Source of the DNA: Diplonema papillatum | Lineage: Eukaryota; Euglenozoa; Diplonemea; Diplonemida; Diplonemidae | DNA: 64,000 nucleotides | Direction: 5' to 3' | Assembly: GCA_030068145.1 (NCBI GenBank) | Contig: JAPJBO010000071.1 | Coordinates: 1-64,000, forward strand | Shown: positions 2,385 through 60,173 of the stretch, piece by piece | Numbering within the stretch: position 1 is the first letter of the stretch | How the letters are laid out: each line of letters opens with the position of its first letter | Translations under genes and position numbers: made by a program | Notes under the pieces: generated by a model | Told to the model about the DNA's origin: nothing | Database searches by the model: none | What the model saw: the letters and a program-made list of their open reading frames with translations, nothing else

Positions 2385-2501
2385 CGATTCATTGCTTCAT
2401 CTATTGCTTTGTGTTTCTTTGTTGACTTCTTGTGCAGCAAGCTGGACCCTAAGTGCAATGCAAACAACACACCTTTCGTTCTGCCACTGTTTGTTGTAGG
2501 T

Positions 2502-2756
2502 GCTGTTGATGCTGTTGATGCTGTTGATGCTGTTGATGCTGTTGATGCTGTTGATGCTGTTGAGCTGTAGGTGCTGTAGGTGCTGTTGGTGCTGTTGGTG
2601 CTGTTGGTGCTGTTGGTGCTGTTGGTGCTGTTGGTGCTGTTGGTGCTGTTGATGCTGTTGATGCTGTTGATGCTGTTGATGCTGTTGATGCTGTTGATGC
2701 TGTTGATGCTGTTGATGCTGTTGATGCTGTTGATGCTGTTGCTGCTGTTGCTGCTG
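2502..2756 (+). repeat. 9-bp microsatellite (GCTGTTGAT / GCTGTTGGT)
   Basis: Two runs of a 9-bp unit separated by a short break around 2563-2580. The first run uses GCTGTTGAT. The second starts as GCTGTTGGT and changes back to GCTGTTGAT, which suggests separate local expansions. Open frames through it encode only Ala-Val-Asp or Leu-Leu-Met repeats. Confidence 0.9.
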
Positions 2757-4205
2757 TTTTATCCTAGCTGCTGCTCCTCTAGCTGCTACTCATCTCTAGC
2801 CCCCTTATCTTCTGCTTCTCTATCTGCTGCCCCTGCTGCTGCCAGCTGTTACCCTGGCTGCCCGCTGATGCTCATCTTGCTTATTCCCCTGTTGATGCAG
2901 CTGCTGCTGCTTCTCTATCTGCTGCCCCTCTAGCTGTTGCTCCTCCAGCTGCACTCATCTTGCTTTGTCCCTCTTTGCGGCTCCTCTAGCTGCTGCTCCT
3001 CTAGCTGCTCCTGTCTTGCCTCCAGTGGTTGCTCATCTTGCTTCCTTCTTGCTGCTGCTCCTCGAGCTGCTGCTCATCTTCCTTCTTCCCTCTTGCTGTA
3101 GCTCTTCCTCCTGCTTCTGCTCCTCTATCTGCCGCCCCTCTAGCTGTTCTATCCTCTAGCTGCTGCTCATCTTGCTTCTTTCTCTCTTGCTGCAGCTCTT
3201 CCTCCTGCTTCTGCTCCTCTTTCTGTTGCCCCTCTAGCTGTTTTATCCTAGCTGCTGCTCCTCGAGCTGCTGCTCATCTTGCTCCTGCTCATCTTCCTTC
3301 TTCCCTCTTGCTGTAGCTCTTCCTCCTGCTTCTGCTCCTCTATCTGCTGTCCCTCTAGCTGTTCTATCCTCTAGCTGCTGCTCATCTTACTTCTTTCTCT
3401 CTTTTTGCTGCAGCTCTTCCTCCTGCTTCTGCTCCTCTATCTGCCGCCCCTCTAGCTGTTCTATCCTCTAGCTGCTGCTCATCTTGCTTCTTTCTCTCTT
3501 GCTGCAGCTCTTCCTCCTGCTTCTGCTCCTCTTTCTGTTGCCCCTCTAGCTGTTTTATCCTAGCTGCTGCTCCTCGAGCTGCTGCTCATCTTGCTCCTGC
3601 TCATCTTCCTTCTTCCCTCTTGCTGTAGCTCTTCCTCCTGCTTCTGCTCCTCTATCTGCTGTCCCTCTAGCTGTTCTATCCTCTAGCTGCTGCTCGTCTT
3701 CCTTCTTCCCTCTTGCTGTAGCTCTTCCTCCTGCTTCTGCTCCTCTATCTGCTGCCCCTCTAGCTGTTCTATCCTCTAGCTGCTGCTCATCTTACTTCTT
3801 TCTCTCTTTTTGCTGCTCCTCGAGCTGCTGCTCATCTTGTTCCTGCTCATCTTCCTTCTTCCCTCTTGCTGTAGCTCTTCCTCCTGCTTCTGCTCCGCTA
3901 TCTGCCGCCCCTCTAGCTGTTCTATCCTCTAGCTGCTGCTCATCTTGCTTCTTTCTTTCTTGCTGCAGCTCTTCCTCCTGCTTCTGCTCCTCTTTCTGTT
4001 GCCCCTCTAGCTGTTTTATCCTAGCTGCTGCTCCTCTAGCTGCTACTCATCTTGCTTCTTCCCTCTTTGCTGCTCCTCGAGCTGCTGCTCTTCTTGCTCC
4101 TGCTCATCTTCCTTCTTCCCTCTTGCTGTAGCTCTTCCTCCTGCTTCTGCTCCTCTATCTGCTGCCCCTCTAGCTGTTCTATCCTCTAGCTGCTGCTCGA
4201 GCTGC
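2757..4205. repeat. Complex CTC/CTG minisatellite
   Basis: About 1.45 kb of long, imperfect units made of CTCTAGCTG, TTCTATCCTCTAG, CTGCTGCTCATC and CTTCCTCCTGCTTC modules. The CTCTAGCTGTTCTATCCTC module recurs near 3138, 3353, 3450, 3664, 3759, 3910 and 4166. On the minus strand long segments read as Glu/Gln/Lys-rich, coiled-coil-like peptide, for example QIEEQKQEEELQQ. In-frame stops and frame changes interrupt every frame. It is best called a minisatellite, possibly derived from a coiled-coil exon. Confidence 0.85.
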
Positions 4206-4209
4206 TAGA

Positions 4210-5150
4210 ATGACCAAAAATGCCCAAAGAGCCGCGCCTGAATGATGGCGAACCGCGCCAAAGAGCGGTACTAGAGCGACTGCAAATCTCCAAAGCACCT
4301 TTGTTTGAAGGACTGCAGAACGGTGCCAGGTTGACAGCCAATGGCCAAGGATTGGCACCAGAATTAACGAACAGCGTGACACGTGAATGGTGTTGTTTGG
4401 CTGAACAGGAAACTGTCCAAACCTGTCAAAGAATCCTGATCAATCATCAGGCAAAGACAGTTGGATAAACAACAAAGACTGCCTGCGTCTGCCGCGCTTG
4501 CAGCGCGTTTCCGAGGAACACCACCAGGAGGTGCAGGTCAGATTTTTGTCCCTCATGTCAAACAAGCAATGAGCCATCGTCTGGACTTAGAAGCGGAGGA
4601 TGATGAGGAATATCCTTTGTGTGACTCTTGATCCCTTTGAAGAGTTTTCTGCAGTTCACAGGGCCACCTTGCCAAAGGAGCTCTCAACAATGCGATGAGT
4701 ACCCGCTCTCCTGATGTCGAAATGGGGGGGAAGTTCCGATCTTCGAAAGAATGTCGTTCGTCTGAACTTCGAATTCCTGTGAGGGTTTCTTCAGATGCAT
4801 CGGTCAAAACCATCATCAAATTGAGCACACACACCGCTATCTGCACCTGTTCACTTAATCGCAAAAAAAAATGGCATACTTCATTGTTTCCGGTGGGCGC
4901 CAAAACAACTGTCATTGAACCTCGTCATCCCGCCATCTTTTATTTTGGTGTCATGTTCTTCCAGTTGTTTTTATTACCTTTTTTTTCGTTTCAATTTGAA
5001 TGGTTTCAACTTCTTCTTGCTCGAGTCGGGCCTCCCATAGATGAGAGGCCCCCTTTCCTGGACAAGACGGCCGCCTTCTTTCAAAGGTTCGGGATTCACG
5101 AGGGGGCCCGCTAGGGCCACCGAGTGCGGGTTTGCGGGCGGGGGTTTGCG
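4210..5150 (+). repeat. Dispersed repeat R1, copy b
   Basis: First unit of a direct duplication whose second unit is 5151-6085. The two match almost base for base from the block ccaaagcacctttgtttgaa to the end at gagtgcgggtttgcggg. The ORFs found inside (60-140 residues) differ between copies and show no domain. I do not recognise the family. Confidence 0.8.
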
Positions 5151-6085
5151 GGATGTCCAAAGCACCTTTGTTTGAAGGACAGCAAATGACTGCAGAACGG
5201 TGCCAGATTGACAGCCAATGGCCAAGGATTGGCACCAGAACGACTGCCAATCGCCAGAGATCGTCCCAAGAATGACAGCCAATGAATGACCAGCAAGCGG
5301 CACCAGAATTAACGAACAGCGTGACACGTGAATGGTATCGTTTGGCTGAACAGGAAACTGTCCAAACCTGTCAAAGAATCCTGATCAATCATCAGGCAAA
5401 GACAGTTGGATAAACAACAAAGACTGCCTGCGTCGGCCGTGCTTGCAGCGCGTTTCCGAGGAACACCACGAGGAGGTGCAGGTCAGATTTTTGTCCCTCA
5501 TGTCAAAAACAAGCAATGAGCCATCGTCTGGACTTCGAAGCGGAGGATGATGAGGAATATCCTTTGTGTGACTCTTGATCCCTTTGAAGAGTTTCCTGCA
5601 GTTCACAGGGCCACCTTGCCAAAGGAGCTCTCAACAATGCGATGAGCGCCCCTGATGTCGAAATGGGGAAGAAGTTCCGATCTTCGAAAGAACGTCGTTC
5701 GTCTGTACTTCGAATTCCTGTGAGGGTTTCTTCAGATGCATCGGTCAAAACCATCATCAATTTGAGCACGCACACCGCTCTCTGCACTTATTCACTTAAT
5801 CGCAAAAAAAATGGCATACTTCATTGTTTCCGGTGGGCGCCAAAACAACCGGCATTGAACCTTGTCACCCCGCCATCTTTTATTTTGGTGTCATGTTCTT
5901 CCGGTTGATATTATTACCTTTTTTGTAGTTTCAATTTGAATGGTTTCAACTTCTTCTTGCTCGAGTCGGGCCTCCCATAGATGAGAGGCCCCCTTTCCTG
6001 GACAAGACGGCCGCCTTCTTTCAAAGGTTCGGGATTCACGAGGGGGCCCGCTAGGGCCACCGAGTGCGGGTTTGCGGGCAGTTTT
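5151..6085 (+). repeat. Dispersed repeat R1, copy c
   Basis: Second unit of the tandem duplication. Relative to copy b it carries about 80 extra bases near 5240-5300, themselves built from repeats of the local motif gacagccaatg and tggcaccagaa. It otherwise follows copy b closely and ends at about 6085, where unrelated sequence begins. Confidence 0.8.
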
Positions 6086-14630: not shown

Positions 14631-16676
14631 TCACCGAGCCCACTTCTCGATATGAAGTGGAATATGAGAGCACAATTTGCGAAAAGCACTGTGTGCAGCT
14701 TGAGAAAACGAAGTAGGACCACAGACAGCAGCAGCTGTTGGAAGCTTTGTGCAGTGTTGCTCTGCAATTTGGGGGAAGATCGGATGACCAAGACTCATCT
14801 CTATGCGATCCTGAGCAATGCCTCCAAGCAAATCCACAGAGGAACTGGTGTAGTGGACAACAACATGAAATTTCGGCAGCCTCTCCAAGAAAGGTGAAAT
14901 TTCTTTAAGCATCATGGACAAGGTTTCACTGTCCCGAACGCTCCATACAAGAACACAGTCTTGGTCAGGTCGCAAGAACTCTAGAACACTCAGGGCAAAA
15001 GTAACGCCAATGCCTCCTGCTAGTAGGACCACTTTGGTGTAGTCCTCAATTTCGAAGGTGAGGCCTCCATAAGGACCCTCGATTCGCATTTTCTGAGGCC
15101 AGGTTTTCTTATTTCTGCAGGCCTGCACTAAGCGATGAGACCAGCTGCCATGTTCATGAGCCAGCACAAAGACAAGCGAGCTTGTAGCTTTGGGACCCGT
15201 TATGATGGTGCATGGGTGGGCCTCCACAGTACTCAGACATGGAAGCACAAGCATGAGGTGGCTTCCTGGCCTAAAGTTGGTGCACTGCTTAGGCAATCTG
15301 AAAGTTAGATGAGCAATATTCATGTTACTGAAACATGTATCAATGTCTGTGAGGTGAATCTGGCTAAACCATCTCATACATGTATCAGCGATATACAGGA
15401 GCAGTGGAGGACAAAAGAGTATGAATGTCCTCAAGCCAAAACCACCATGTACAATTGTGCAGATAACTAGAGTCAGCGCCAGTGCAATGTGTGAGTTGTA
15501 GAAGAATTCCCAAATGTGTCTCCGAAGCACGGGGACTGCTAACACTGCAAGAAGTGTATGGCAAGTCCATGCCGCAATCCCAGCAGCCGGGTTGACAGAA
15601 AAGTGACCATCGGTTGTGCCAGCTGTTACAACGGAGCTGTTCAACAAAAGGTAGGTGTTGCCGCTTTCCATATAAGTCGCAAGCACACCAAGCATGTGTA
15701 GAGTGGCCGTTATCCAGGCTGCAGTCCCCACCAAACAATGAAAGGTGTGTGCTCGCTCACTTGAGGTGTTCAATAGGAGCAGGGGTGATGCTTTTTTCAA
15801 TTTCGAAAGAAACTGAAAAACAAGAAGCATTTGAGTCATTCCACCAAACGATATCCAGACAGCAATCTTCCGGTTTCGATAAGACAAAATGTCACCTGTT
15901 GCCACAATGAGCAAGATGATAACTAGAGTAATTCCAGAAGCTATAGATGCCATCTTGCCCTGATGCAAGTTGTGTGAGAAGGTGGGGTTACTTGTTTTGC
16001 AGACAGCGGCAATAATAAGGAGAACAAACAGGATGCCTTCGGCTATAAGAAGATGTGTAATAAACCCTGTAGACTGCTTGTGCACCTCGACATCACCAGT
16101 TCTCCAATTGATAAGTACAGATCCGTCCTGATAGTGATTAGCTGTAGGTAATGTGGCAGCTTGCGGAGAAGGACCTGTTGCAAACACAAGCCTTATCGCT
16201 GAGGTTGGAACTGCATAGTCATGTTCTTCCTCACCAGCCGAAATGAGGCGTGCGAATGTGGCATTCCATGTGTGATCAGCTACAGCATGGGTGAGAACTG
16301 TGATATCATCTTGATGGTCCCTAGGACAGCCCGAGTAGTCAGAACACCACGCATCAGAGCAGTGTACTGCATTATTTGTTGGATCATCCCAGCACATCCA
16401 AGCATCTGTTGCTGCCATGACAGCATGAGGACTGATTCCAAGAGCGCAATAATGCGCATTAGTACATTCTAAACTGAAGGTTGCATAGGTGTTGTTGCCT
16501 ATGCCCAGCAGCTGCCACGAAGCTTTGAATCCGACAGTGAGTGTCTGCTGCTCACTCGCAAAGTTATGCCCTACCACAGCTCCTTCAGAAAGCAGATTTA
16601 GTGGCACAGTGGATGCATCGGCTGCCAATAGGCAAAGAACCACCACACTTTGTACATGATGGTGCCTCCCCACCAT
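14631..16676 (-). CDS. DOMON-ferric reductase-like transmembrane oxidoreductase
   Basis: Predicted membrane flavocytochrome that moves electrons from NAD(P)H through FAD and two hemes to ferric iron or another acceptor across a membrane. The frame is intronless. I take the ATG at 16676 (681 residues) because it starts a clean signal peptide; an upstream in-frame ATG at 16715 would give 694. Counting from the longer form: DOMON-like ectodomain ~45-185 with paired Cys; membrane helices from ~220 on; heme ligands H326/H340 and H409/H423, both H-x13-H as in FRE-type reductases; FAD motif HPCTI at 500; nucleotide motif GGIGVT at 567; C-terminal CGP at 665. All core motifs are intact. A (GT)n tract lies just upstream. 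Substrate is inferred from family only; a superoxide-producing NOX role is less likely because of the second heme spacing. Confidence 0.9.
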   Translation of the reverse strand: MVGRHHHVQSVVVLCLLAADASTVPLNLLSEGAVVGHNFASEQQTLTVGFKASWQLLGIGNNTYATFSLECTNAHYCALGISPHAVMAATDAWMCWDDPTNNAVHCSDAWCSDYSGCPRDHQDDITVLTHAVADHTWNATFARLISAGEEEHDYAVPTSAIRLVFATGPSPQAATLPTANHYQDGSVLINWRTGDVEVHKQSTGFITHLLIAEGILFVLLIIAAVCKTSNPTFSHNLHQGKMASIASGITLVIILLIVATGDILSYRNRKIAVWISFGGMTQMLLVFQFLSKLKKASPLLLLNTSSERAHTFHCLVGTAAWITATLHMLGVLATYMESGNTYLLLNSSVVTAGTTDGHFSVNPAAGIAAWTCHTLLAVLAVPVLRRHIWEFFYNSHIALALTLVICTIVHGGFGLRTFILFCPPLLLYIADTCMRWFSQIHLTDIDTCFSNMNIAHLTFRLPKQCTNFRPGSHLMLVLPCLSTVEAHPCTIITGPKATSSLVFVLAHEHGSWSHRLVQACRNKKTWPQKMRIEGPYGGLTFEIEDYTKVVLLAGGIGVTFALSVLEFLRPDQDCVLVWSVRDSETLSMMLKEISPFLERLPKFHVVVHYTSSSVDLLGGIAQDRIEMSLGHPIFPQIAEQHCTKLPTAAAVCGPTSFSQAAHSAFRKLCSHIPLHIEKWAR

Positions 16677-16810
16677 GCGTGTGAGCTCAGCCCCTGGTGT
16701 TAATTTTTCCTGCATGTTTATTGTGTGTTCGAAGGGGGAGTACCAAAAGGGGGCAAACGGTGCGGCCTGCGTTTGTCAAATTTTCCTTACCCCTCCAACC
16801 TCAAGCTTGC

Positions 16811-18984
<2,174 letters not shown>

Positions 18985-42864: not shown

Positions 42865-45800
42865 CAGGGTTTTTTCTGGGGTGGGCTGGAGTGGGGATTT
42901 TCCCCACTCCAGATTCTTGGCGAAAATCTGAGTGGGCTGGAGTGGGTTTTTTTTTCCTGTTCATTGCAGCATCGCCAGAAAAGCTGCGACCCCACATCGC
43001 AACGCAATCGCTCCAGAAGTGCGAAAAAAGGGGCAGGAAAAAGAAGAGAAAGGAAGAAAGAAAAAAAGACGAGACAGGCAGGAAATGCAGCACGTGTTGA
43101 CAACCAACGACGAGACCCACCTGAGAGAGTACAGAACGAGCCCCTGTGCGGCGCCGACGAAAACGAGATGACACTGGAGGAGGTTCTCAACGGCTTCGTA
43201 ATAGGTACCAGGAACCGGGATGACAAGGCGGCAGAACGGGCATCGTGGCAACCAACAAAGACCTGCAAATCGGTACCCGACGACTACGCAAAATCGCCAT
43301 CCCACCACACCTTGTCAAAAGGGTGGGCATCAGCCGAAACTACCAACATAAAGGAAAAGAAATGGTGCGGGTGTGAAGACAAACAATAACAACATAAAAA
43401 ACGACGGACTGACGTTCATCGTCGGAAACACAAACAATGTCGCGGCAGGGAACACTTGCAGGGTTTTTTACGCCACTCAAACGTAAGCGCGAGGACTCGA
43501 CAGGCGATGAGGCCACAGAGACACCACCAACCCAACAAGGTGATCCACCTTCTCAGCCGACACCTGAAGTACAGCCACCGACACAACCCCCTCCTGGACC
43601 ACTTCAAGCTCAGCCACCTGCCTCTGAACGCCAAGTCCCAGCAAACCAGCAGATCCTCCATAACTACATGGCTTGGTCGGCAGTGTTGTTGGAAGAGCAA
43701 GGAAAACTGCGGGGTTTGACGTGGAAGAGAACAGGGATCGGGTACCTCAAGAAAGCTGATTTCATGGCTCGAGTCCAGGAACACGACAAAGGACCGAAAC
43801 GTCAGCAGCAGGCCACGCAGCAAGCACCACTGCCCGACGCCGACAAAGCATCCGAGGGCTACGACTCCGCCGCCTCGCAGGCTTCGAGAACGTCGCAGAG
43901 CTCAAAGAAGTGGCACACGAAGGTGAGCAAAAAGCAGCTGCGGTGTCAGTTTCCAGGGGTCACTGACGACGTTCTTTGGGCGGGAAAAGCAGAAGGAGAG
44001 GAGGGTTTTGAGTGGAGTGCAGAACCGAAGACATTCATACCGGTGTCGGAACGAACTGTGCCTCCGCACGAAAGAGCGGCAGCAAGAAAGAAGAAAGAGA
44101 CGAAGGACCCTGTTCAACCTATCGCTTCGTATGAGCAGTGGGATCTTGAGGTCTCGCGGTTATTGGATCAGAGCGTTGTCGTTGAAGACCTCGAAAGCTG
44201 CGTCGATGAGAAGGATGAGGATTCCGATGCGAGCGATGACTGGGCCAACGACGAACGGTTTGCAAAAGTCAAAGCTCGCTATTCGTGGCTTGTCGCGGGG
44301 CGGCACGGCTACTACTGTGCGCTGTGCCGGCACCACCGGATGCTTCTCCGAGGAATGGGGGGAAAGAAGACCGGGAGTGCTGCAGAAAAGTGGATTGAAA
44401 CCCCGTTTGTGAACATGGACAAACTCGGGGAACGATCTACGTCCCATGGGAACACCGCCTCTCACAAGGCAGCTGCAGAGGCAGAAATGCACCGATTGAC
44501 CGGCGTGGGTTTGGGGGGTTTGCGAAAGGCCGCAGTGCAGGAAAACCGTCTCCAGCTCATGAAGCTGGTTTGCGTGCTCTATTTTCTCGTCAAGGAGGGG
44601 ATAGCCCACACAACCAACTACGAGCCCCTGATCCGTCTCATCACCCGAACCGACACAGATCTCCGGAGCTTTGTGTCTTCCACCCGTAATGCAACCTACA
44701 CGAGCACCAACATTGCCACTCAAATCCTGGAGGCAATCGACTGGGTCCTGAGGACCGAAATTGAAGAGCGAGTGAAGAAATCGCCGTATCTCGCAATTTT
44801 GGCTGATGAGACGGAGAATGTGAAGCACCAAGAGGAACTCTCCATCTTCCTTCGTGGAACATCGGAGCGCGGGGTGTGGGACGTCTTTTGGTGCATGCTT
44901 CCATTAGATGCTGGCAAGGATGCCGCAAGTGTCACTAAGCAGCTCATCAAGCGCCTGCGGTACCGTCTCCCACCAGAGGAACTCGCTCAGGACGCGGCGG
45001 TGCCGCCCTTGGGGGCCCCTGTTCCCGCAGAAAAGTTCGTGGCGATTGCACTTAATGGCACGAATACCATGAGCGGTGAGTTTGGAGGGGTTCAGGCAAG
45101 GCTGAAGTGGGAGTACAATGCCTTCGCTGTGTACGTGTGGTGCAGTTCTCACAAACTGCAACTGGCAGTTGTCTGGGCTGCCATGCTCACCTTTGACGTT
45201 CTCAGTTGTGTCAACAGCCTGAGGGACTTGTTCTTCTTCCTCAGGGCGAGTACACAAAGGATGGGACGGTACCGCGACACCATCCAGGAGGTGAGGGAAA
45301 AGGAAAGGTTCAGCCGAATGCCGAACAAAGTCTTGGTTAAAAGCGGTGATACAAGATGGTTGACTAACGAGAGATCGGCTGCTGTGACCCTTCGCACGTG
45401 GCCAGCCATTTACGAAACAATCGAAGACCTCCGGGCAGAGTCCGGAGACGCTCTTTCGACTGGGCTTGTCACACGGTTGCTGTCCCCGGCATTCATTGCG
45501 TCCCTCTTCCTCTTGCGTGAAATCTTTGGGATTGTCTGTCCTCTTTCCCTGCAGCTACAAAAGGGGGCCTCCGCTCTCATCGGTGTTTCCCGACAAGTTG
45601 AAGTTGTAATCAGTTCCATCACTGCCATCAAAGACCTCGCTCCCCCGACCCTGGACCCCCAGTCCATCCAGCCTGCCGACATTGGCTACCACACGTGGCC
45701 GCTGTACTACAATTGGTACATATCCGAGCACGCAAGCGGGAAGACAGTCGGCAAGCAATCGTGGTCCCTTTACCATGCTGCGACTGGAAAGGTTTACTGT

Positions 45801-46713
45801 GAGAAGCTAGTCGAGCAGCTCAAAACCCGGTTCAAGGATTACGGTATCGTGAGTGTGCTGGCTCTCTTTGACCCAAAGTACGCGTTCGGACACGACTGCG
45901 ATAGTGATGCAGCATTGATCGACACTTTCGTTGAACACTTCACAACGTGCAAAACGGTCCAAGTGACAGGAAAAGAGGACAGACATTTCCAGCCGATGTG
46001 GAGTGCTGCCCAGGGTCGGGGTGTGAAGCACGAGCTACCCCAATTGCTCAAGACCATTCAGATGACCAAGGAAAGGTGCACAGATCCCGAGGCTTTCAGC
46101 TTTCAGGATGCCTTGCTTTATGCCATGAAGCACGAGGCGCAAGCACTCCCACGTGCAGTCTCCGCCATGCGGTTGGTCGCCACTTATCCCTCAGGGACGA
46201 GTGCTGTTGAGCGATCATTCAGTGTTCTCAAAGACACCCTGGATCTTTTAAGGAACCGGCTCACGAGCGGACATTTGGATATGATCCTGCGCATCCGTAT
46301 CGAGGGTCCACCAGAGCTTTCGATGGTCTTTTTGGAGAAGGTTGTTGACCGTTTTGTCGAGATGGTCCCGAGCCGTCGCCTAAACTTTGTGCAGGCGAAG
46401 GCCAATTCTGCATAGTGGGATCTGTCCCAGGTTGTTCCACGACTATCATTCCTAAATGCAGCACCCGTTTTTTTGTGACACAACCCTCGTTCACTCCCTT
46501 CCTGCTGTGGCAACTGAACCCATGTGAAGACAACGAACAAACCGGCCTAATAGGCACCAGGAGAACGTCGAACTAAGCTGCTTTGGGGGAAAAGCCCGCA
46601 GCCAGCACCACAAAGCGCAATTTGCGTGGATTGCTTGGCAATTCGGCTCTGAAAACGCGTCGAAAAGTTTCCCCACTCCAGCTCGAAAATTTGAAATCCT
46701 AGAAAAACCCCTG
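42865..46713 (+). mobile_element. hAT-family DNA transposon, 3.85 kb
   Basis: The ends are short terminal inverted repeats, 42865-42881 starting cagggttttttct and 46697-46713 ending agaaaaacccctg (14 of 17 positions pair). CAGGG-type ends are typical of hAT elements. A subterminal motif ctggagtgggga occurs on both sides: twice direct and once inverted at 42884-42940, and once at about 46670-46685. It is probably a transposase-binding site. One intact transposase gene fills the interior. hAT elements normally leave an 8-bp target duplication, but the flanks share only aaaga next to each end, so the duplication is not clear. Confidence 0.85.
43437..46415 (+). CDS. hAT-family transposase, 992 residues
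   Basis: Intronless frame without stops. Residues 4-11 (QGTLAGFF) match the PCNA-interacting (PIP) box consensus and are followed by a basic KRKR. A Pro/Gln-rich region follows. A BED/TTF-like zinc finger is formed by C294, C297, H337 and H343. The RNase H-like core has D457 in ILADETEN. It then has a motif LNGTNTMSG at 539-547, where hAT enzymes usually have an Asp; here it is Asn540. CSSHKLQLA and TRWLTNERS follow. Glu925 lies in SAVERSFSVLK, followed by the dimerisation region LRNRLTSGHLDMILRI. All landmarks of a hAT transposase are present, but the second acidic residue seems lost. Length exceeds most hAT enzymes because of the extended N-terminus. It is the only long intact gene on the plus strand. 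Confidence 0.92.
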   Translation: MSRQGTLAGFFTPLKRKREDSTGDEATETPPTQQGDPPSQPTPEVQPPTQPPPGPLQAQPPASERQVPANQQILHNYMAWSAVLLEEQGKLRGLTWKRTGIGYLKKADFMARVQEHDKGPKRQQQATQQAPLPDADKASEGYDSAASQASRTSQSSKKWHTKVSKKQLRCQFPGVTDDVLWAGKAEGEEGFEWSAEPKTFIPVSERTVPPHERAAARKKKETKDPVQPIASYEQWDLEVSRLLDQSVVVEDLESCVDEKDEDSDASDDWANDERFAKVKARYSWLVAGRHGYYCALCRHHRMLLRGMGGKKTGSAAEKWIETPFVNMDKLGERSTSHGNTASHKAAAEAEMHRLTGVGLGGLRKAAVQENRLQLMKLVCVLYFLVKEGIAHTTNYEPLIRLITRTDTDLRSFVSSTRNATYTSTNIATQILEAIDWVLRTEIEERVKKSPYLAILADETENVKHQEELSIFLRGTSERGVWDVFWCMLPLDAGKDAASVTKQLIKRLRYRLPPEELAQDAAVPPLGAPVPAEKFVAIALNGTNTMSGEFGGVQARLKWEYNAFAVYVWCSSHKLQLAVVWAAMLTFDVLSCVNSLRDLFFFLRASTQRMGRYRDTIQEVREKERFSRMPNKVLVKSGDTRWLTNERSAAVTLRTWPAIYETIEDLRAESGDALSTGLVTRLLSPAFIASLFLLREIFGIVCPLSLQLQKGASALIGVSRQVEVVISSITAIKDLAPPTLDPQSIQPADIGYHTWPLYYNWYISEHASGKTVGKQSWSLYHAATGKVYCEKLVEQLKTRFKDYGIVSVLALFDPKYAFGHDCDSDAALIDTFVEHFTTCKTVQVTGKEDRHFQPMWSAAQGRGVKHELPQLLKTIQMTKERCTDPEAFSFQDALLYAMKHEAQALPRAVSAMRLVATYPSGTSAVERSFSVLKDTLDLLRNRLTSGHLDMILRIRIEGPPELSMVFLEKVVDRFVEMVPSRRLNFVQAKANSA

Positions 46714-52226: not shown

Positions 52227-53891
52227 TTAGGTGAAAGCGATGAGGGCGGAGGACAACGCGTCGATGTTGGAAGCAGGGGTCTCCTGGGTGAATGCATTGA
52301 AAGAACTGTCGACGTCAAAACCTTGCAGAGACCTGCCCTTGTTGAAACGGCAACGGTGCCTGCCTGAGACCACGGTGTACGGTGACGGTGGCTGAATGTA
52401 CGTCGTACCAGCGGTGTACGGTTGGTGCGTACTCGGAATGGTCACGGGTAGAACAGGCGTGTTGTTGGCCTCACGCTCGCTTTCCTCGGGGACTTCAGGC
52501 TCGCATGGGAAAAACGAAGCCAAACTTTCCCTATTGCGCTGTGCATCAACGGGCAGCGAAGGGCACGTTTGCGGACCATCGTACATGCCGAGCAGGGGTG
52601 TCTTGTCCAGTCTCGGGGCTTCCTCGGTGACAGCAGTCACGGCGGTGCTGACGGAACGGGCTGACGACAAAGAGGCAGACGAGCCGGAGGAGGCGTAATG
52701 CGGGTGTCTCATCATGTTGTGCAACTCGTCAACAGGGGGCGCCAACGGTGCCTCCGCCGACGCCAGGTGCATCTGCTGGCTGTACTCAACCGTGCTGCTG
52801 GCGAACTCGTTCGCATCGTATCTCGCTGTTGCATCAAAAAACATTGTGTGCAACGGAAGCGGGGGCACAACGTTGGTCACATCGCGATTCTGTAGGTATG
52901 TAAGCAATGTGTTCTGTACCTTGTAGTGTGATGTGGGTCAGTCGCGTTGAGCACAGAAAAAGGAGAGACTTGCACGGTATAAATGAAGGCAACACAGGGG
53001 CTCACAACTGCACTGCTCCTATCTAACCCTGTTTCGATTCTTTATTCACGAACCCATAAGGCGGTTCAACATCAACGCGTACCTGAGTGCAACCCCTGCA
53101 GTGCACAGTTCACATGTGCAGCCACCAACAAAGGGAAACAAGTGAGATATTCATGAGTGCCGCCAAAACACGGTTTGGCTCTTTGGACGAATACATTTGT
53201 ATTCACTGGTGGTCGTCGGATGGTCACTCTCAAAAAATGGGTGCATGCCGCCGGGCCTGCGGTTCGGGATGCAAGTGTGGAGCCTTGAAAAACATACCGT
53301 GTACAATTCCGCTGCCGGCAGGCAGGGCACTGAAAGTTCTTCAGTTCTGGTGGGCGGTTGCCAGTGCATCATGCTGTTGAACTCAGGGTACCATGGGTGC
53401 GGCTGCGCACTGACGTAGTTCGAGTGCTGCAACTGGTTGAGACCCGAGTCGCTGGACGGTGGGTATGCGAAGGAATCGTCGAGTTGTTGCTGTGGCGACG
53501 CTGAATTGGCAGTGTAAGTGTACTCGTGTTGCTCCGAGTCAGGGTAAGAAGTGTCGACTGCTTCGGGGTTCCAATCGGCCGCGTTGACGTCGTCGAAAGT
53601 GTGCAAGAACTGCCTCCAGTTGCGAAGGACAACTTCAAAAGCCCTCTTCGACAGAGTGCGGTTGCTCCTGGGAGACGTGCTCGGAGTGTCTAGGTGCATG
53701 CTTGAGATCCTCCTGTCCTTCGGGACCTGTTCCATATAGTTCTGATAGCCGAGGGTTAGTTTACCGATCTGCACCTGCTTTGCACGCTGCCTCATACGTG
53801 CCGATTCACACGGAGGCCCCGGCTGTTGTTCGTGAACAGTTACGATGTGCATTGCGGGCGTGACAGGAACGATCATGGCGCTGCTGGTCAT
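52227..53891 (-). CDS. SLBP: Histone RNA hairpin-binding protein (SLBP) paralog A, 2 exons
   Basis: Predicted to bind the stem-loop of replication-dependent histone mRNAs and guide their processing, export and translation. Minus-strand exons 53891-53298 and 52889-52227 are joined in phase 0 (donor gtatgt, acceptor cctacag), giving 418 residues. The SLBP RNA-binding domain spans ~32-101: RMRQRAKQVQIGK, TLGYQNYMEQVPKDRR, the DTP motif at 68-70, then LSKRAFEVVLRNWRQFLHTFDD. It is divergent: the canonical TPNK becomes TPST, and two tryptophans expected in SRRSWD and LHFWD are Phe here. The remainder is Ser/Pro/Gln-rich and disordered. A head-to-tail paralog lies 2 kb upstream in transcription sense. 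Family assignment is strong; function is inferred. Confidence 0.88.
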
Positions 53892-55957
53892 TTTCGGATT
53901 CCTACGAATCTGTTTTGCTGCTGTAAGCGAGCCGGACTAGTTTGAGCTCAGGAAAAGAGAGTCTGTGCGCAGGCCGCGCTTTTGTGGGGTCTTGTTTCCT
54001 ACTTTCTTCTCGTGTTCGTGTTCGTGTTCCCTTCTTTTGTCGCGCTTTGGCTTACTTCGTTCGTTTGCTGCTTTTCCACAGACTCTCGCTAGTCTTTTTT
54101 TTTCTAGGGTTGATTGGGGTGGCGGGGTGTGTTCCTGCGCGGTGGTTTTTATAGCGTGGTTCAACCTGCTCGTTCTCAGGAAAACACTTGCTCGATATGC
54201 GATCTGCAGTGCTTTGATCTGGCAGCATGCTTAACTCTCTACGGACGAGGGACACATATTTATGTCGAAAAAGTCTGAACCCGAGCTTGGGTTCGGACAC
54301 GTTGCCTCCAGAGCAACGACACGTCAAAAAGGATCAATATTTGCTGCTGTAAGAGATCTCCAAGGAGCACAGGTTTCCCATTTTGGAATTGTAAAACTCT
54401 TGAGTTTGACCCACAGATTCCCCAGAAGGCGTTCTGCGCGCTGGACAACCTCCCCATAAGGGGTTGGGGGACTCAGGAAACACTGGCTGGACTCAAAGGG
54501 TACACCTGCCAGAGCGTGGCTGCCAGAACTTGGCGCTGCATTTACTACGACCTGTTCCGTCGCATGTCAGACCATGGCATTGCAGGTCTGAAAGAAACTG
54601 TTTAGTACATGGTTTAGACGTGCTTACCTTTCATTGTGGCTGCTACCTTGCGGGAGAAATTAGTTCTGCAGCTGTAAAAGCGACAACTATCATTGTTGCG
54701 GCTCCTGCTGCAAAGTCGCTGCCTCTCTGTATGCGGTGCCTATAATGAAGAACGCATTGGAAAGGCGTAAACGGAAAGTTCTTTTACGGCTAACCCCTCT
54801 TGTTGCTCTTTATTTTTTGAATAAAACACGAAATTCCCCCGTTGAAAGCAACAGAGGCGCACTACTGTTTTTTGGCCGGTTTTGCGTTGGATGGTGTTTG
54901 AAGGCCTCTTACCCTTGGGGGCGGGATTGGAGACAGGGATAGGAGATGGGGTCAGCGCTTCGACGAAGGCATGAAACGAGGTTTTCTTTTTTTGGCGCTA
55001 GCAACACTGTCTGTGTCGTGGGATCAAGTAAAAGCGCTGCTCTGCTCCGAGCCCCCTGGCAACAGCCTGTTTGCCCTACTACCTAGTCTGCTCTTGTTTC
55101 GCGATATTCCCGTTGTTTCTTGGTCTTTTTTCAAATCGGTAAAAACTCGATCAGGTTGGAAGATACCCAGTACACGTGATACTACCCTCAATCACTTGTC
55201 TCAGCAAACCCAAGCAGCGCCACCCCACCCCTATACCGGCTCTGTATAGTCCACCACACGTCTTGCTGCAGTGGTACCCACAAATGACCGAAGGCATCTG
55301 CAGCGTTTCTATCTCCTTCGTCACAAGAATTGTGACCAGTGACAACTACTAGCAGGTCACACTTGGCCGAACCTACAAGTTCAGACCAGTAAAGTCCGGC
55401 CAACTGTTAGTGGCATCCATTCTTGAGTTCGGGGCGAGTATCGTTTTGAACACAACAAGGGTATACTTCTGGTGCGGCAAGCGCCAAGGTTCATCATCAG
55501 GTAAGTCAGATCTTGGAGCCAGGCGCGGAAACCTTTGGGCTAACATGGTCAATCCCGATCCTAACAACACTCAGTCCCGTGCCATCTGAGAAGCAAGGTA
55601 CACTCTTTTGCCTTGGACACGGATGAGGGCGGCAGGTGATTGCCATTTCCCCGTGAATGGCGTTTCTCGGAGCAGGACTAAAATCTGTAACCCAGATAGT
55701 GGGTGTTGACCGCAAGCTGAAACACCCCTCCTGACGAATGCCTGAGGAAGCTCGTGTGATCTGTTTTCCTCCATGCCGCTCCTAGTTTCTGCGAAATCGA
55801 TCGCATCGCTTCAAATAAACTGGGTCCACCTGTGGACAAGATGCCGACCTTGATGAATGCCGGAGTGCATGTTTCTCCATGCAACCACGCTGGGGAGGCC
55901 GTCGATCTCGTACGATGGCTCTGGGAAAATGCGGGGCGGTAAGGGGGCCTGCCTCTG
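53892..55957. other. Spacer between the two SLBP paralogs
   Basis: No supported gene. Plus-strand candidates are weak: 54262-54351 could be a first exon (MSKKSEPELGFG, with a gtaaga donor after FAA), and 54971-55249 is a 92-codon frame with a signal-peptide-like start (MKRGFLFLALATLSVSW). Neither has a domain or a clear partner exon. Confidence 0.35.
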
Positions 55958-56998
55958 TCACCACTGCGAACTTTTGAGGGTTCGTCCTGAGTCTAGTGTG
56001 GCAAGTTCCCTCGCCAGAATTTCAGCATCTCGCGATTTTCGGCTTACTGCTCTGACGTACGCATCACAGGGATCGTCCGGGCTCTGCTGTTGCTTCGAAT
56101 CCGAGAAGGCGTTGTCTGCATCACGCCACTTCCAGCACCCTGCGCTCGAAAACGCGAAGGAGCCGTCGACGTGTTGCTGTGTCGAGTATGAATTTTCGGA
56201 GAGAGAGAACTCATGATGCCCCGCGTCCGACCGCGCATTGCCAGAGTCTGGGAACTCGTGTTCTCTCAAATCCGGATGTGTGATGCCTTCTTGCTTCGAG
56301 TCCGGACGCAATAAAGAATACTCATTTTCCAAATCTGGACGTACATTGCAGGAGGAAAGGTGTTCGCGTTCCTTCGAAACCGGACACGCATTGCCAAAGT
56401 AAGAGTCCCCGTCTTGCATCGAGTCCGAACGTGATTTACCAGAAAAGGGGAAGTTGTAGTAATTCGAAGTTGAACGTGCTTCGCTGCAGTACGGGTACTC
56501 GCGTTCTTTTGATTCCGGACGCATATTGCCAGAGTAAGAGTGCCCGTCTTGTTTCGAGTCCGGACGGAATTTAATAGGGTAAGGATGCTCGTGTTCCTTC
56601 GAATCTGAACGCGCATTGCTGGAGTAAGGATAACCGTTTCGCTCCAAATCCGGATACGGGCTGCCGGCCAAGTTGGGATTTCGGTTGGCGCCTACATTGG
56701 CATCATCGTAAGTGTGCAAGAACTGCCGCCAGTTGCGAAGGACGACTTCAAAGGCCCTCTTCGAGAGAACGCGGTTGCTCCTGGGAGACGTACTCGGAGT
56801 GTCCTGGTGTCTGCCTGGGACCCTTCTGTCCTTCGGGACCTGTTCCAAGTAGTTCTGATACCCAAGGGTGAGTTTACCAATCTGCACCTGCTTCGAACGC
56901 TGCCTCATGCGAGCTGTATCGTTCTGGGCTCCTGGTTGCTGTTCATCTGCAGCATGCAAGGCCTGCATGACAGGAATAATAAGGGGGCTCCCGGCCAT
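55958..56998 (-). CDS. SLBP: Histone RNA hairpin-binding protein (SLBP) paralog B with internal repeats
   Basis: A 346-residue single-exon frame from the ATG at 56998. The N-terminal ~100 residues are closely similar to paralog A: ARMRQRSKQVQIGKLTLGY, EQVPKDRR, DTPSTSPRSNR, then LSKRAFEVVLRNWRQFL and HTYDD. It shows the same departures from the classic SLBP domain. Residues ~110-270 are about ten imperfect 15-residue repeats of type NARSDSKEHEYPYSG. Paralog A has only one comparable unit (YPDSEQHEYTYTA). The tail (QQHVDGSFAFSSA) again aligns with A (QQQLDDSFAYPPS). A further 3' exon is possible, because A has one. Role as for paralog A; whether the two divide labour between stages or histone classes cannot be read from sequence. 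Confidence 0.88.
   Translation of the reverse strand: MAGSPLIIPVMQALHAADEQQPGAQNDTARMRQRSKQVQIGKLTLGYQNYLEQVPKDRRVPGRHQDTPSTSPRSNRVLSKRAFEVVLRNWRQFLHTYDDANVGANRNPNLAGSPYPDLERNGYPYSSNARSDSKEHEHPYPIKFRPDSKQDGHSYSGNMRPESKEREYPYCSEARSTSNYYNFPFSGKSRSDSMQDGDSYFGNACPVSKEREHLSSCNVRPDLENEYSLLRPDSKQEGITHPDLREHEFPDSGNARSDAGHHEFSLSENSYSTQQHVDGSFAFSSAGCWKWRDADNAFSDSKQQQSPDDPCDAYVRAVSRKSRDAEILARELATLDSGRTLKSSQW
56190..56665 (-). repeat. 45-bp coding minisatellite in SLBP paralog B
   Basis: About ten in-frame 45-bp units, each coding 15 residues. Sub-types alternate (SKEHE/SKERE, SKQDG/SMQDG, SNYYN), which hints at a higher-order repeat of two to three units. Length changes remain multiples of three except for two shortened units. 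Confidence 0.8.
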
Positions 56999-59154: not shown

Positions 59155-60173
59155 TTAACGAGCCTGAGGGTGGTTCGCGACGTACTCGGTCGCGTCGTCG
59201 ATGGTGAGGATCTTCTCGGCCTGAAAAGAGCGGTTTTTTGAGTGGCGGGAAGATACTATGAGAGAGATGTTCGGTAGCCAATATCAGCCACACGCTCCGG
59301 AGAATAAGGGAGTGATTGGGGGTTGAGGCTGTTTTGGGGTGTGCCACCGGAGAAGAAGGGCAAGCCAGCTGTTTCTGTTTGTTTTGCTGTTTTGGGGGAT
59401 CCTAGAAAGCGGAGGCACACCTCGTTGTCGGGAATGTCGATGAAGAACTCCTGCTCGAATGACATCACGACCTCAACCTGGTCGAGCGAGTCGAGTCCCA
59501 GGTCGTTGATGAAGTGTGCACCCGGCTTCACACGGTCCGCCGGCACCTTCTGGAAGTTTCTAACGCACTCCATCACTCTCTTCTCCGTGTCCGCACGGTC
59601 CAGGAAGTACGACCTGTGTAGGCGGTAATTCATTTTTGTAAACTTGTTTAACTTGAAAACATCGGGGTTTACGTCGGTACTACGAGCAGAGAGTCTCAGC
59701 TAGGTTCGTGCACGAGTATTCGTCGTAGTTAGTCAGGACCATCTATTCATGGCAGGCTATCTAGGTTGGGAAACTCATTGCTTCTTTTCAGAAGCTTCTT
59801 TTTAGAGTTAAAGTTTTCACAAGTGGGCTGTTTTGTCGTGCCTGGTAGTTGCTTTTCTTTTCCGGACAGCAAATGCCAAACTAGCCTAACCAGAGGATGT
59901 AAGACCGAACCCCGAACGATCACAAACAACACCGCCATTGATTACGACAAGCACCTGCTATGCTCGCTGCTACACAGTTTCAACAGCATAAATCTTCCAT
60001 AGCCGGCAGAGATCGTACTTCGAAGACGACTTTTAAACACAGGGGCTTTGCCGTCGTCATCTCACCGCCGGACAACCTCACCGCCGGACAACCAATCTGA
60101 AAATCCGAGAAACATACCGCATTCCCCATCTGTGAACGATGGGCGTGGCACGGCTCATGACGCTGCGGAACAT
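59155..60173 (-). CDS. NDUFAB1: Mitochondrial acyl carrier protein, 3 exons
   Basis: Carries acyl chains on 4'-phosphopantetheine in mitochondrial type II fatty acid and lipoate synthesis; in many eukaryotes it is also a complex I subunit. Minus-strand exons 60173-60118, 59613-59421 and 59220-59155 join to 104 residues. Exon 1 codes MFRSVMSRATPIVHRWGM, an Arg-rich amphipathic presequence, and ends in phase 2 at a gtatgt donor. Exon 2 resumes as SYFLDRADTEKRV and holds the DLGLDSLDQVEVVM motif, whose Ser receives the prosthetic group. Exon 3 ends the fold (AEKILTIDDATEYV). The core length and DSL motif are canonical. An apparent ATG at 59633 would give a form without presequence, but it lies in the intron of this model. 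Confidence 0.93.

Follow-up and report, generated by a model that had tools for sequence, protein, structure and literature searches.

Two adjoining SLBP genes on the minus strand

The analyzed DNA, in the following called the window, comprises 64 kb of the Diplonema papillatum contig JAPJBO010000071.1 and harbors at 52227..56998 two adjoining genes on the minus strand, each coding for a protein with the RNA-binding domain of the histone hairpin-binding protein SLBP. They are referred to as copies A and B. A first-pass annotation made from the sequence had placed two such genes at this position and on this strand; both open reading frames (ORFs) were present there, and so were the peptides quoted in it. 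It had also proposed a search with the Pfam profile PF15247, which was carried out and gave scores well above the gathering score of 27. Copy A matched with 77.8 bits (expectation value E 6.5e-22; residues 30-101, profile positions 3-70 of 70) and copy B with 77.6 bits (E 7.3e-22; residues 27-99, profile positions 2-70 of 70). No other Pfam-A family was detected in either copy up to E 10, and neither copy matched the prokaryotic library NCBIfam. The locus is composed of the following features (aa, amino acids; nt, nucleotides).

53151-53891, minus strand: SLBP copy A as an ORF, 246 aa
53298..53891, minus strand: exon 1 of copy A, ATG at 53891, holding the RNA-binding domain
53589..53804, minus strand: RNA-binding domain of copy A, aa 30-101, PF15247
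53502..53546, minus strand: single 15-aa unit in the tail of copy A, YPDSEQHEYTYTANS
52890..53297, minus strand: predicted GT-AG intron of copy A, 408 nt, deduced from the open join
52227..52889, minus strand: predicted exon 2 of copy A, frame open to the stop at 52227
55958..56998, minus strand: SLBP copy B, single ORF of 346 aa, taken as one exon
56702..56920, minus strand: RNA-binding domain of copy B, aa 27-99, PF15247
56189..56656, minus strand: degenerate 15-aa repeat run in copy B's tail, about nine units, aa 115-270

No ATG-initiated ORF as long as the 346 aa of copy B arose when the 7.5-kb region was shuffled 300 times by single bases (longest ORF per shuffle: mean 125 aa, maximum 293 aa). 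The 246-aa ORF of copy A stayed below this maximum, and the case for copy A as a gene rests on its domain since the length of the ORF lies within the range of the shuffles. The nearest in-frame stop upstream was located 16 codons ahead of the ATG in copy A and 47 codons ahead of it in copy B.

The ORF 52227-52907, which had formed the left edge of the first-pass annotation, did not match any Pfam family up to E 10 and is best read as a predicted second exon of copy A. By joining the donor GTATGTTT (GTATGT) at 53297 to the acceptor CCTACAG at 52890, one frame of 418 aa was obtained. The splice scan covered the offsets 450-760 (counted from the ATG) for donors and offsets up to 1050 for acceptors; in this range 12 GT/AG pairs kept the frame open to the stop at 52227, the selected join and 11 others. 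The two-exon model, according to which copy A probably encodes 418 aa, is a prediction chosen by eye among these 12 open joins. The GC content by codon position was alike in exon 1 (0.55/0.45/0.69) and in the predicted exon 2 (0.55/0.51/0.68). A counterpart of the predicted exon 2 was not found at copy B, neither by tblastn nor by blastn, and its local alignment with the tail of B reached a score of 45, a value that has no shuffle baseline.

Relationship of the domains to known SLBPs

Searches against the sequences of the PDB (E up to 1) assigned both copies to the same protein. For copy B, all four distinct matches were histone RNA hairpin-binding proteins (best E 3.5e-10). The same was true for four of the five matches of copy A (best E 1.5e-9), while the fifth was an unrelated lectin chain with an E of 0.76. 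Both RNA-binding domains matched the entries 4tux, 4tv0, 4tuw and 4l8r. The SLBP of 4TUX, 4TUW and 4TV0 is that of Drosophila. An alignment of A and B with two of the PDB domains disclosed 21 columns that were invariant over the four rows.

Functionally important residues were compared with the human protein, whose numbering was anchored on Thr171 of the TPNK motif as given in an excerpt of PMC10388802. According to the same excerpt, two hydrogen bonds between Arg181 and G7 are the sole base-specific ones made by human SLBP, and a lack of the phosphate on Thr171 lowers the affinity 7-11-fold (PMC10388802). The arginine aligned with Arg181 (the second R of human SRR) is the R of SKR in copy B and was invariant in the four-row alignment. 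Human Thr171-Pro172 aligned with TP in copy B, and copy A carries identical letters at this position. The copies resemble human SLBP (4L8R, 4QOZ) and the SLBP of 4TUX, 4TUW and 4TV0 in the RNA-binding domain, in the base-reading arginine and in the TP of TPNK, as well as in possessing one small domain within a longer protein. They differ from these SLBPs in being tandem genes and in having no Pfam match beyond the domain. The simplest reading of these similarities is that both copies would bind histone hairpins.

Several observations weigh against this reading. Compared with human SLBP, TPNK is replaced by TPST in both copies, i.e., NK is changed to ST, and four extra residues follow ahead of the last helix; the alignment is unsteady here, and MAFFT placed the insert differently than the pairwise alignment with the PDB sequence. 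At the position of human Tyr144, counted from the PDB alignment, both copies carry an isoleucine. An AlphaFold2 model calculated from two rows of the window was of low confidence (pLDDT 62.9, pTM 0.26) and contained long helices at 24-53 and 80-102; by Foldseek, this low-confidence model did not match any chain of the PDB. Moreover, no substrate was found in the window, where the searches for histone motifs, Rfam families and hairpin patterns were all empty or at chance level. Nine histone motifs gave at most 55% identity in the six frames, in a scan that could overlook a histone gene whose motif is interrupted by an intron. At the gathering scores, Rfam yielded no match at all in the window and hence no histone 3′ hairpin, which was also absent among the 11 matches obtained up to E 10. 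A loose hairpin pattern was found three times (1.6 expected), a number that was reached in 22 of 100 shuffles. Pattern searches were also performed in viral contigs with two alignments (118 and 47 matches, none confirmed) and in prokaryotic genome contigs (32 matches, none confirmed); misses in collections of these kinds were expected and tell little about a eukaryotic gene.

Duplication of the genes and divergence of the copies

The first-pass annotation had suggested a local duplication, and this suggestion was borne out. The copies lie 2.1 kb apart on the same strand, 60 out of 70 residues of their RNA-binding domains are identical, and the prefix in front of the domain as well as a part of the tail can be aligned. 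When three ORFs were used as tblastn queries, A and B found each other and no third SLBP copy was detected in the window. In the prefix, 14 of 30 aligned residues were identical and the synonymous sites were saturated (proportion of synonymous differences, pS, 0.756). Behind the domain, a stretch shared by A and B reached a local score of 67, a value well clear of the 54 that was the highest among 300 shuffles. Hence, the sequences support the view that the pair are tandem duplicates, homologous beyond the shared domain. At the DNA level, A and B matched over 218 bp with 86.7% identity and over a 74-bp fragment of the tail, otherwise not at all. Upstream flanks of 1.5 and 1.4 kb and downstream flanks of 2.2 and 2.1 kb did not disclose any match between A and B better than E 0.07. 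From this lack of significant similarity in the flanks and from the saturated synonymous sites of the prefix, we concluded that the duplication is old and that the copies are not two alleles. It is very improbable that two alleles or haplotypes were laid end to end as an artefact of the assembly, because alleles are expected to be nearly alike throughout; besides the dissimilar flanks, a pS of 0.34 in the domain and of 0.76 before it speaks against such an origin, which was rejected on these grounds. We also considered copy B as a retrocopy of A, a possibility raised by the fact that B can be read without any intron. The predicted intron of A, however, lies outside the part shared with B and is therefore uninformative on this point.

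Within the domain, pS was 0.342 and the corresponding proportion of replacement differences (pN) 0.070; the corrected values were 0.456 (dS) and 0.073 (dN), resulting in a ratio of 0.16. The depletion of replacements was pronounced (Fisher p ~1e-5 on rounded counts); when 27 substitutions were drawn at random 2000 times, the number of replacements (mean 20.9) never fell to 12 or below. Synonymous change thus far exceeds replacement, for which reason neither domain looks decayed. Judged by their substitutions, the domains are kept by purifying selection since the duplication.

Synonymous change was not uniform along the genes. Among the codons for the same residue (Met and Trp left out; domain regions 53584-53801 and 56697-56914), 14 of 59 differed synonymously within the domain, compared with 9 of 13 ahead of it. 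This difference (Fisher p 0.003) may reflect gene conversion or a constraint on the codons of the domain. Gene conversion would homogenize the two RNA-binding domains, so that the domain looks younger than the pair, and the confinement of the DNA match, apart from the tail fragment, to 218 bp would fit such a process. On the other hand, the numbers are small and a constraint at the codon or RNA level would create an identical picture. We regard gene conversion as possible, with a slight leaning against it; it would be compatible with an old duplication.

The tails of the two proteins are unlike. Copy A has one 15-aa unit and the predicted exon 2, copy B has about nine units. In the tail of B, identity peaked at distances of 15, 30 and 45 residues, and TRF reported an array with a period of 135 nt at 56364-56626. 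Against a 15-residue consensus, 11 stretches of B scored at least 12; two of them overlap neighbors, which leaves nine. In 500 shuffled versions of B, 3.3 such stretches were counted on average and eight at most, overlapping hits included. Among the three best stretches of A, one unit was strong (score 52) and the other two were weak; this comparison favors B, since the consensus was built from the units of B. When the units of B were compared with one another, pN/pS was 0.80, i.e., near neutral, a value that lends no support to a function of the repeats.

Interpretation of the SLBP pair

We think it likely that the pair arose by an old local duplication of an SLBP gene and that both copies were retained as working histone-hairpin-binding proteins. 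According to this explanation, each protein would hold histone mRNAs by their 3′ hairpin through its domain of about 70 residues, in which the arginine of SKR would recognize the guanine at the foot of the stem. This grip would in turn serve the protection, the processing or the translation of histone mRNAs in S phase. We infer that both copies are expressed; they would differ by their probably disordered tails, which may influence partners, stability or timing.

Known SLBPs provide the frame for this interpretation. In the consulted part of PMC6723414, SLBP is described, for all animals and for some protozoa, as governing histone mRNAs whose end is a hairpin and not a poly(A) tail; among the alveolates, Perkinsus marinus is said there to carry histone 3′ stem-loops, for which dinoflagellates give no evidence. 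Excerpts of a paper on dinoflagellate histones (PMC4751559) mention neither stem-loops nor SLBP. Two SLBPs are known, as far as excerpts of the literature mention it, from T. brucei, Xenopus and cow. One of the two proteins of T. brucei is reported to bind a cap-binding protein via a segment missing from other SLBPs (excerpts of PMC7139794 and PMC8021392), and both are more phosphorylated in S phase, SLBP2 more strongly (excerpt of PMC6907760). In Xenopus, the SLBP2 of the oocyte gives way to SLBP at maturation (excerpt of PMC7226043). Trypanosoma brucei thus is another protist in which two SLBP paralogs occur, a similarity that was drawn from descriptions; its SLBP2 is described as having a segment of its own that other SLBPs lack. 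The vertebrate SLBP and the oocyte SLBP2 likewise form two paralogs, one of which is stage-specific, in an animal lineage and presumably after an independent duplication. The trypanosome and vertebrate cases are precedents and not evidence for the pair described here.

These precedents, T. brucei SLBP2 and the SLBP2 of Xenopus oocytes, agree with a specialization of the copies, in which one would act as a processing or stability SLBP on the histone mRNAs of replication and the other as a stage-specific translational regulator. The strong divergence beyond the domain points in the same direction, as only 14 of 30 residues of the prefix are identical and the tails are unlike in length, in repeats and in the predicted exon 2. 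Divergence in prefix and tails would fit different partners, stability or timing, while the near-identical domains, including the residue aligned with Arg181, are a weak argument against different RNA targets. Such tails can, however, diverge without functional change, and the repeat units of B are near neutral; we consider this specialization rather doubtful. Still less probable is a more elaborate version, in which the tandem SLBPs split the control of histone mRNAs, their domains being kept alike by gene conversion while the tails diverge and a tyrosine-containing 15-residue repeat has grown in one of them. It would imply that the same mRNAs are served by two regulators which differ in their partners or timing. 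An equally improbable explanation holds that one copy matters and the other is a redundant, decaying duplicate. In its favor, the predicted exon 2 of A has no counterpart that was found by B, and the tail of B is filled with repeats. Both frames, however, are open and replacements in the domain are strongly depleted; by our reckoning, a copy that was unconstrained since the duplication should give a pairwise ratio of about 0.5 or more and not 0.16. This argument from selection is still compatible with a recent loss of function.

The old duplication with two retained copies remains our preferred explanation. The pair is a modest variation on known SLBP biology and not a new system. Among the listed titles and abstract openings of the open-access literature, a tandem SLBP pair was not found as a topic, though it may still be reported; one paper in which SLBP and tandem duplication both occur (PMC7255616) is on fish Zmat2. 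A divergent second copy in a protist would represent a natural experiment on the question which parts of SLBP beyond the domain carry regulation; if there is only redundancy, the pair matters little.

The start of the window contains candidates for another type of element, which may be more noteworthy than the SLBP pair. Three sequences resembling hepatitis delta virus (HDV)-like ribozymes were detected on the minus strand at 444-521, 4481-4554 and 5426-5499. Their scores for RF02682 (32.3, 28.6 and 29.0 bits) were below the gathering score of 44, and with E-values of 0.039 to 0.28 for the whole window each is weak alone; the first also gave 29.2 bits for drz-agam-1 (gathering score 37). All three can form a P1 of seven pairs, G-U pairs counted. 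P1 and P2 arms co-vary between the first candidate and the other two, the P2 arms changing together from CUUGCC/GGCAAG in 444-521 to CCUGC/GCAGG in 4481-4554 and 5426-5499. Since the last two candidates are near-identical, the covariation of P2 is effectively one comparison of two sequences. P4 pairs in 444-521 and 4481-4554; in 5426-5499 a mismatch is present and no P4 of at least five pairs was listed. The candidate at 4481-4554 has one changed letter in the otherwise common P3 loop region. A model built from the three candidates found those three alone in the window, as expected by construction.

The candidates reside in repeat copies at ~430-1034, ~4332-5139 and ~5273-6079, the last two of which are arranged in tandem, are 94% alike and have a common end of 45 bp. 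Judged by this arrangement, the region looks like a mobile or satellite-like element with a self-cleaving ribozyme, possibly a ribozyme-bearing non-autonomous element; for comparison, retrozymes are described in excerpts of the literature as carrying hammerheads. A satellite array at 1035-2183 with a period of about 166 bp and 98-99% identity between shifted copies abuts the end of the first ribozyme-bearing element. It is followed at 2474-4190 by long degenerate repeats, TGCTGTTGA-like and then CTCCTCTAGCTGCTG-like, and the segment 2001-4000 shows a strong strand bias (AT skew -0.54).

Further ORFs were assigned elsewhere in the window. Upstream of copy B, an ORF at 59256-59633 on the minus strand matched acyl carrier proteins with its residues 7-72; its best match in the PDB was a chain named NDUAB1-alpha (8e73), and the next ones were for the most part acyl carrier proteins, often with mitochondrial in the name. 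The plus strand contains at 43437-46415 an ORF of 992 aa, possibly a DNA transposon gene, whose weak similarity to the hAT dimerisation region (16.7 bits) stays below the cut-off of 21.4. The SLBP genes, the predicted intron, the acyl carrier protein of mitochondrial type and this weakly hAT-like ORF all speak for a eukaryote as the source of the DNA. At 14631-16715 on the minus strand, a single ORF of 694 aa encodes a fusion of DOMON and ferric reductase, the latter with domains for the binding of FAD and NAD. A long (CA/TG)n microsatellite at 16776-17400 reads as ORFs in six frames.

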